Part shown: piece by piece, positions 52,933 through 54,942 of the stretch
Numbering within the stretch: position 1 is the stretch's first letter
Layout: the number at the start of each line of letters is the position of its first letter
Assembly: GCF_000503055.1 (NCBI RefSeq)
Contig: NZ_AYVY01000010.1
Location: 154,352-218,351, forward strand
DNA length: 64,000 nt
Direction: 5' to 3'
From: Mesorhizobium sp. LSHC420B00
GTDB lineage: Bacteria; Pseudomonadota; Alphaproteobacteria; Rhizobiales; Rhizobiaceae
The notes under the pieces: model-generated
Databases searched by the model: none
What the model was told of the DNA's origin: nothing
The model's input: only the letters and a program-made list of their open reading frames with translations
Made by a program: the position numbers and the translations under genes

Positions 52933-54222
<1,290 letters not shown>

Positions 54223-54237
54223 GGGTGTCCCCTCTTG

Positions 54238-54261
54238 AAAAAATATCGGCAGGCCGCCGAT
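54238..54261 (-). terminator. Terminator-like hairpin abutting the metK ribosome binding site
   Basis: On minus, ATCGGC-GGCCT-GCCGAT forms a six-base perfect stem with a five-base loop, followed by ATTTTTTC. Only about 16 bases separate it from the metK GTG, too few for a promoter, so metK transcripts must read through or start just before it. Confidence 0.75.
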
Positions 54262-54522
54262 TTTGGCGCGCCAGTTGTTAACGGTGCCGGGCGCCGCTCG
54301 TCAAGTCGTGCAGCCGTTCTAGCATGAATTTTGACGTTATTATCTTTGCGTCCAGAAGACGGCGGCAGGGCGCACTACCCTCATCTCTTGCACTCACAGG
54401 CTGAAGAGAACGGTTTCGTGGAAGCATGTCGAGCAAAATCGATCCGCGCGTCGGCGCATCTGCGGAATGCACATCCCACGGTGCACTCAGCCACGAGAAA
54501 TTGCATGCCCGGCTACGGCCAG
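54262..54522 (-). promoter_or_regulatory. metK leader region
   Basis: This 260-base gap between the XRE gene and the hairpin has no supported gene. TTGACG (54299-54304) and TTAACA (54276-54281), 17 bases apart, form a weak promoter candidate; GATAAT near 54339-54344 is another possible -10. A 15-codon frame (54278-54325) has no clear Shine-Dalgarno. I do not see a SAM-II riboswitch consensus. Confidence 0.45.
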
Positions 54523-54942
54523 TCAATCGACCTCGTCGACGGAGAGCGACTTCACAAGCTCGATGATCTTGCGACGCACTTTCACGTCGGCGATCTTGAC
54601 GAAGGCGCGGTTCAGCTGGAGGCCTTCCGGGCTGCCGCAGAATTCGACGGCGGAGGTCATCGACGCATCCTCGGCAAATCCACGGTTGCCCACGGCCTCC
54701 TGACCGGGCGCATCCTCGAAAAAGAAGGCGACGGGAACGCCGAGTATCGAGGCGATTGCCTGCAAACGACTGGCGCCGACGCGATTGGTGCCTTTTTCGT
54801 ACTTTTGGATCTGCTGGAACGTTATGCCGAGGTTTTCGCCCAGTTTTTCCTGACTCATTCCCAGCATATTGCGGCGAAGCCGGATGCGGCTTCCGACGTG
54901 GATGTCGATCGGATTCGGCTTTTTCTTGTTTTCTTCTGTCAT
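54523..54942 (-). CDS. XRE-family helix-turn-helix regulator
   Basis: The 139-residue protein has the Cro/C1 helix-turn-helix at residues 17-72 (MSQEKLGENLGITFQQIQKY), then a C-terminal region with RAFVKIADVKVRRKIIELVK. It is a conserved neighbour of metK and lnt in rhizobia. The target is unknown; proximity suggests possible control of metK, which is inference. Confidence 0.88.
   Translation of the reverse strand: MTEENKKKPNPIDIHVGSRIRLRRNMLGMSQEKLGENLGITFQQIQKYEKGTNRVGASRLQAIASILGVPVAFFFEDAPGQEAVGNRGFAEDASMTSAVEFCGSPEGLQLNRAFVKIADVKVRRKIIELVKSLSVDEVD

Follow-up and report, generated by a model that had tools for sequence, protein, structure and literature searches.

A probable conserved RNA stem-loop in the metK leader of Mesorhizobium and its relatives

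A short stem directly before metK of Mesorhizobium sp. LSHC420B00 raises the question of whether it is a chance hairpin, a terminator, a metabolite-sensing leader or an element of another kind. The product of metK synthesises SAM, and in the related Sinorhizobium meliloti the gene is described as essential (PMC9373788); its leader is a small, bounded and testable control candidate. The first-pass annotation of the window, that is, of the whole 64-kb stretch of DNA analysed, had pointed to a perfect six-base stem and a T6 run shortly before the metK start, and both were seen on the minus strand with their coordinates confirmed (Table 1). The minus-strand gene order is lnt, an XRE-like helix-turn-helix (HTH) gene, metK and a gene for a TrmB-like tRNA methyltransferase, with a gap of 300 bp between the HTH gene and metK. 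All matches of the HTH gene to HTH regulator families stayed below cut-off. The MetK of the window is 94-95% identical to that of the nearest named Mesorhizobium loci (L001, L002 and L035). The same genome holds a second, divergent metK-like gene (C24:18076-19032) with 52% identity to the MetK of the window.

Table 1. Features of the metK locus, in positions of the window
Feature	Position	Strand	Basis or detail
XRE-like helix-turn-helix gene, upstream of and co-directional with metK	54523..54942	-	ORF
Promoter	54277..54304	-	Sequence pattern; TTGAC 54304-54300, 17-nt spacer, GTTAAC 54282-54277
Stem-loop ATCGGC-GGCCT-GCCGAT	54245..54261	-	6 bp, 7 including a G-U closing pair
Stem 5' arm ATCGGC	54261-54256	-	
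Loop GGCCT	54255-54251	-	
Stem 3' arm GCCGAT	54250-54245	-	
A, then T6	54244, then 54243-54238	-	Part of the U-rich tract before the Shine-Dalgarno sequence
Shine-Dalgarno sequence (SD) GAGGGG	54229..54234	-	Direct reading
Mini-hairpin	54223..54232	-	SD GGG 54232-54230 with CCC 54225-54223
metK start codon GTG	54222-54220	-	
metK, methionine adenosyltransferase (SAM synthetase)	52933..54222	-	NCBIfam TIGR01034, 443 bits, cut-off 309

Taken alone, the hairpin of the window is not significant, because a terminator scan of 4.7 kb returned 11 sites of this kind, compared with 5.5 ± 2.7 in shuffled sequence, the local fold at the hairpin gave a z of -0.26 with 80 of 200 shuffles equally good, and a stem of at least 6 bp stood at the same position in 29 of 185 control genes. 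The control genes were taken by a crude ORF rule from the genome of the window (336 ORFs, 186 with an SD), and 76 of 185 match the window in predicted fold stability over 36 nt. Mean z of the leader fold was -1.1 for the genus (n = 58), -1.2 for leaders without an upstream SahR-type site, other families included (n = 102), and -0.75 for leaders with such a site (n = 24). The thermodynamic tests by themselves were weak; what is significant is the conservation of the hairpin across relatives, not the single instance.

The comparison took in 80 metK loci from named records, a genus group of 117 loci from 116 of 119 genomes, and 108 leaders of the family, which include eight from the window's own genus group (L191 and L219-L225), two genomes contributing a second copy each (L196/L226 and L214/L227); L188 and L040 had no MetK start. 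The window was also counted as L082, so that the genus counts of promoter, stem and T residues hold it twice. With that double count, 109 of 110 genus-level leaders had a stem of 6 bp or longer with its end 5-13 nt ahead of the SD. In the family, such stems were found in 42 of the 73 leaders that have no SahR-type site and in none of the 27 that have one, these counts leaving out L191 and covering the leaders in which the SD was placed (at most 73 of 79 and 27 of 29).

The first-pass annotation had proposed a check for conservation and covariation across relatives and would have taken their absence as a refutation; this check was run, and both were found. Alignment A1 was made with MAFFT, blind to structure, from 35 leaders chosen by eye among distinct leaders for likeness to the stem of the window, a choice that favours structure. 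In it 92% of cells were paired, against 11-54% when the partner was slid, and the covariation score was 0.358 against 0.194 in shuffles, a value reached by none of 500 shuffles. One pair occurred as all six standard pair types and was paired in 35 of 35 rows; measured by how many pairs change on both sides, the data did not surpass the shuffles in either of two tests (417 of 500 and 429 of 500). RNAalifold applied to A1 returned the same stem unprompted, together with a pairing of the SD GGG with the pre-start CCC. A covariance model built from A1 matched 66 leaders among 82 sources picked more broadly, leaders with a SahR-type site included, and in the resulting alignment A2 (64 distinct rows), which was fitted to the model and so leans towards it, 96% of cells were paired and seven of nine pairs were changed on both sides. 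When the arms of 55 of the 66 A2 rows were permuted, the mean duplex weakened from -9.6 to -6.8 kcal/mol, with none of 200 permutations as good. The alignment of the Bradyrhizobium group (A3) was too poor for pair counts and was excluded.

In some genera the stem sequence is replaced and the pairing kept; the loop measures 3-8 nt, its letters vary, and few unpaired letters are conserved. A structure-blind alignment of 113 leaders, in which 13 of 121 leaders were omitted and five added, held 43 G-U cells against 16 A-C cells (nine against one within the genus), which argues for an RNA structure rather than a DNA operator. The covariation found is that expected of a conserved structured leader RNA, suggesting that the metK leader hairpin of Mesorhizobium and its relatives is an evolutionarily conserved RNA structure.

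The promoter candidate that the first-pass annotation had placed at 54276-54304 is present and also allows the parse TTGACG-17-TTAACA. The pattern TTGAC-17-(G)CTAAC was kept in 118 of 122 loci searched (window counted twice), all with a spacer of 17; of the others, L188 had no leader, and L037, L027 and L023 lacked the pattern. Its position would put the metK transcript start near 54271 and the hairpin inside a metK leader of about 50 nt, in support of the layout, one of two offered by the first-pass annotation, in which the leader is essentially the hairpin and the SD. Near this presumed start lies a CGCC motif (54265-54268, minus strand), conserved in most leaders of A1. Antiterminator-like pairing of CGCC with the 5' arm was considered and rejected (mean -6.20 against -6.22 for permuted arms, 109 of 200 permutations as low), and neither the arm permutation nor the leader alignment yielded a pairing partner for the motif. 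One study names metK of Sinorhizobium meliloti among the genes with a CtrA motif near the mapped start (PMC3616915).

Searches with the covariance model found the hairpin only at metK. In the genome of the window the model recovered metK at an E value of 1.7e-14, the next match standing at 0.116. Forty-nine of 161 family genomes carried a match and 112 did not; 45 of the 50 family matches adjoin the start of metK, among them all 39 with E < 1e-3, and the other five are weak. Out of 109 genus groups in the family, 31 contain such metK matches, though many of the matched leaders had served as input to the model. At the level of the order, in 297 genomes, all eight matches with E < 1e-9 fell within the genus group and those outside it reached E 7.7e-4 or worse; next to the two best order-level matches outside the family (L299 and L300), no MetK motif was found in 3058 and 2120 bases. 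Two genomes carry two close metK copies each: the hairpin leader is kept in only one copy of the pair L196/L226 and stands at both copies of the pair L117/L175. Fifteen leaders among L051-L072 (most of them Bradyrhizobium, plus an Afipia and a MAG of the Xanthobacteraceae) mostly have a hairpin a few nucleotides before the SD, for example CCGCC..GGCGG or CGTCG..CGACG, with little T after it.

A second metK-associated feature divides the family. According to Leyn and colleagues (PMC4239095), metK is a core SahR target and the SAM-SAH riboswitch is reported only in Rhodobacterales. A SahR-like palindrome was found in 29 of the 108 family leaders, standing upstream of a TTGT-type -35 element in 25 of the 29; SahR sites at metK were also seen in loci of Rhizobium, Agrobacterium, Ensifer and Shinella. 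The hairpin model matched at none of these 29 leaders and at 65 of the 79 leaders without the site, some of these matches being weak (the list takes E up to 0.1, plus L191), leaving 14 of 108 with neither feature. The TTGAC-17 promoter was distributed likewise (67 of 79 and 0 of 29), so that stem-loop and TTGAC promoter go together in lineages without a SahR-type site at metK. Hairpin leaders scored 13 of 16 or less for a SahR-type site. L308 and L323, which have neither the site nor a model match, carry CCTCC..GGAGG just before the metK start codon, where the SD could pair with an anti-SD.

In the genome of the window, a search with the 16-mer core allowing at most three mismatches gave 15 matches (five with the reversed control), none of them at metK or anywhere on the window's contig C10. 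Five of the 15 loci were read, four lying at SAM-cycle genes and one at an unrelated gene; SahR-type palindromes were seen at ahcY (L279), at an ArsR-methyltransferase gene followed by metF (L280), at metE and at metH (L282). At L281 (C24 near 25632) a cobalamin riboswitch (RF00174, 134.7 bits) lies between the palindrome and the metE-like gene. Since such sites stand at other SAM-cycle genes and none at metK, metK lies outside an otherwise present SahR-like set.

Hairpin and upstream SahR-type site are mutually exclusive in this sample, largely by shared ancestry: a tree from 276 nt of metK requires 19 changes among three states and offered only three independent pairs with good support (p about 0.5 in a sign test), and with 23 of 110 inner branches starred it was too weakly resolved to separate the exclusion from ancestry. 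Where the SahR-type site is missing, the hairpin leader may belong to a mode of metK control that has not been described before. A literature search returned no published description of a metK leader hairpin in Rhizobiales, nor any of metK control in family members without a SahR-type site. The 31 genus groups supply natural variants of the hairpin, and the relatives with a SahR-type site supply a natural comparison.

Leaders of both architectures share a feature at the ribosome site itself. The pattern GGG-N2-7-CCC lies near the start in 86 of the 108 family metK leaders, with variable loops and distances, and in 2 of 185 other genes sampled from the window's genome (3 of 186 with metK included), the stretch searched differing between metK leaders and control genes. 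Folded alone, the mini-stem was predicted at -3.5 to -4.9 kcal/mol in five variants, the window giving -4.9, and the mean predicted pairing of the SD was 0.79 over 108 leaders (of 121). In the best fold predicted for the metK transcript of the window, the 3' arm of the hairpin pairs with codons 3-4 in place of the 5' arm, and L098 behaves likewise; L146, L213, L214, L230 and others keep the hairpin. The duplexes between 3' arm and coding region are slightly better than those with permuted partners (-5.69 against -5.28, with 3 of 200 as low).

The reading that we favour, still tentatively, is that the conserved stem-loop is a constitutive structural element of the metK leader, accompanied by a weak SD gate. 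Transcription would start a few bases 5' of the hairpin, so that every transcript from the metK promoter would carry hairpin, U-rich tract, SD and mini-stem. The 5' stem-loop may cap or insulate the short leader, protecting the mRNA and preventing pairing between its GC-rich 5' end and the ribosome site. The U-rich tract would attract the ribosome to metK, and the GGG/CCC mini-stem would damp initiation. We infer folding of the stem in vivo and its stabilising or translational role.

An unlikely alternative is a compact, SAM-responsive, riboswitch-like leader, in which high SAM would refold hairpin and SD region and hide the SD. Gene and position match those of the small SAM/SAH riboswitch at Rhodobacterales metK (PMC4239095, PMC2864571, PMC7367207), and both the predicted pairing of the SD and the slightly better-than-permuted fold of 3' arm on codons 3-4 would suit such a switch. 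The first-pass annotation had seen no SAM-II consensus, and Rfam bore this out: at gathering threshold the whole window gave no match; between 54100 and 55100, with E up to 10, three poor matches appeared far below gathering, none of them SAM/SAH or SAM-II; and the relatives' metK leaders searched, including those among 20 loci, gave none. The replaced stem sequences and the variable sequence and length of the loop also speak against this reading. By eye, the loops inspected (for example GAC, UGA, GGU and AUUGC) held no conserved complement to GGGG of the kind that a loop-SD pseudoknot as in SAM/SAH riboswitches would use, although some contain CCU or CCC, and no clear invariant pocket was visible beyond SD and start.

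The first-pass annotation had also suggested attenuation by a conditional intrinsic terminator, which we now consider quite unlikely. The window does combine stem and T6, and at least five T follow within 8 nt in 85 of 109 genus hairpins, but the same holds for 18 of the 42 leaders sampled elsewhere in the family; G+C-rich stem and T run are largely kept together within the genus and not family-wide. T residues in the 12 nt before the SD averaged 6.46 in the genus (n = 110), 6.26 in hairpin-less leaders with a SahR-type site (n = 27), 5.03 in the other family leaders (n = 73) and 2.48 in control genes (n = 186). Being equally present in leaders that have no hairpin, the T tract is most plausibly a feature of the ribosome site of metK. 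The terminator scores were -26 for the window, -46 for L098 and +6 for L166 with the conserved stem, and with the most stable hairpin they exceeded 0 in none of 59 genus leaders and five of 54 others. In the Bradyrhizobium group the hairpin near the SD has little T after it, and a leader of about 50 nt would leave little room for an antiterminator. Since the T tract accompanies the SD rather than the stem and the scores are mostly negative, we rejected the terminator as a conserved function; judged on these sequence features, the hairpin is probably not a transcription terminator in general, though it may act as one within the genus.

Because the predicted fold of the window's 5' region pairs the 3' arm with codons 3-4, and duplexes of 3' arm and coding region are slightly better than permuted ones, we also weighed an undescribed two-state leader of about 50 nt replacing SahR control, in which either the hairpin would form and leave the SD reachable, or the 3' arm would lie on codons 3-4 and close over the SD mini-stem, with SAM or MetK shifting the balance; as a model this is decidedly improbable.

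We give still less credence to a protein-binding autoregulatory site, for instance one at which MetK would act on its own mRNA. Sinorhizobium MetK has been proposed to bind RNA (PMC9373788, PMC8877191), and restriction of the element to metK would fit such a site. Against it, FLAG-MetK gave no specific co-immunoprecipitation of the metA/metZ riboswitch RNAs (unpublished data mentioned in PMC9373788), two Ensifer metK loci (L012 and L019) have the hairpin-less leader with a SahR-type site, and the loop is not conserved.

Functionless GC-rich drift that happens to pair deserves equally little credence: it would suit a fold energy unremarkable beside shuffles and control genes, and is made unlikely by the covariation that no shuffle of A1 (rows picked for stem likeness) attained, and by a stem that is nearly constant in the genus and absent from leaders with a SahR-type site. 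A DNA operator, with the dyad as repressor binding site and not as RNA structure, would fit the place of the dyad shortly after the transcription start, where repressors classically bind, and a CGGC..GCCG core that hardly varies among the 35 A1 leaders, but it is very improbable in view of the excess of G-U over A-C, a half-site spacing of 3-8 and stem sequences that are replaced in other genera while pairing stays.

Among known systems, the SahR site at metK is likewise a regulatory element of this promoter; it occurs within the same family and together with the same U-rich tract, the SD and mostly the CCC. It differs in being a DNA site upstream of a TTGT-type -35 element, whereas leaders with the hairpin do not have this site and for the most part show TTGAC. 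The ompA leader is a 5' stabilising stem-loop. Elements of the ompA type resemble the metK hairpin in lying near the 5' end and in that their sequence matters little, whereas the metK hairpin stands at one gene, is clade-specific and is coupled to a U-rich SD region with a mini-stem, in a role that we infer. The SAM/SAH riboswitch of Rhodobacterales metK, which we take to be RF01727, is also a short RNA at the metK start with hairpin, linker and SD. PMC7367207 describes it as an H-type pseudoknot whose hairpin loop base-pairs with the SD, conservation of the binding region exceeding 97%, whereas the Mesorhizobium-type hairpin has no Rfam match and varies in loop and stem sequence. The SAM-II riboswitches of Sinorhizobium metA and metZ differ in that they belong to other genes and that the metK leader lacks an Rfam match; they too are SAM-related leader RNAs in Rhizobiales, one predicted to act on the SD and the other by termination (PMC9373788).
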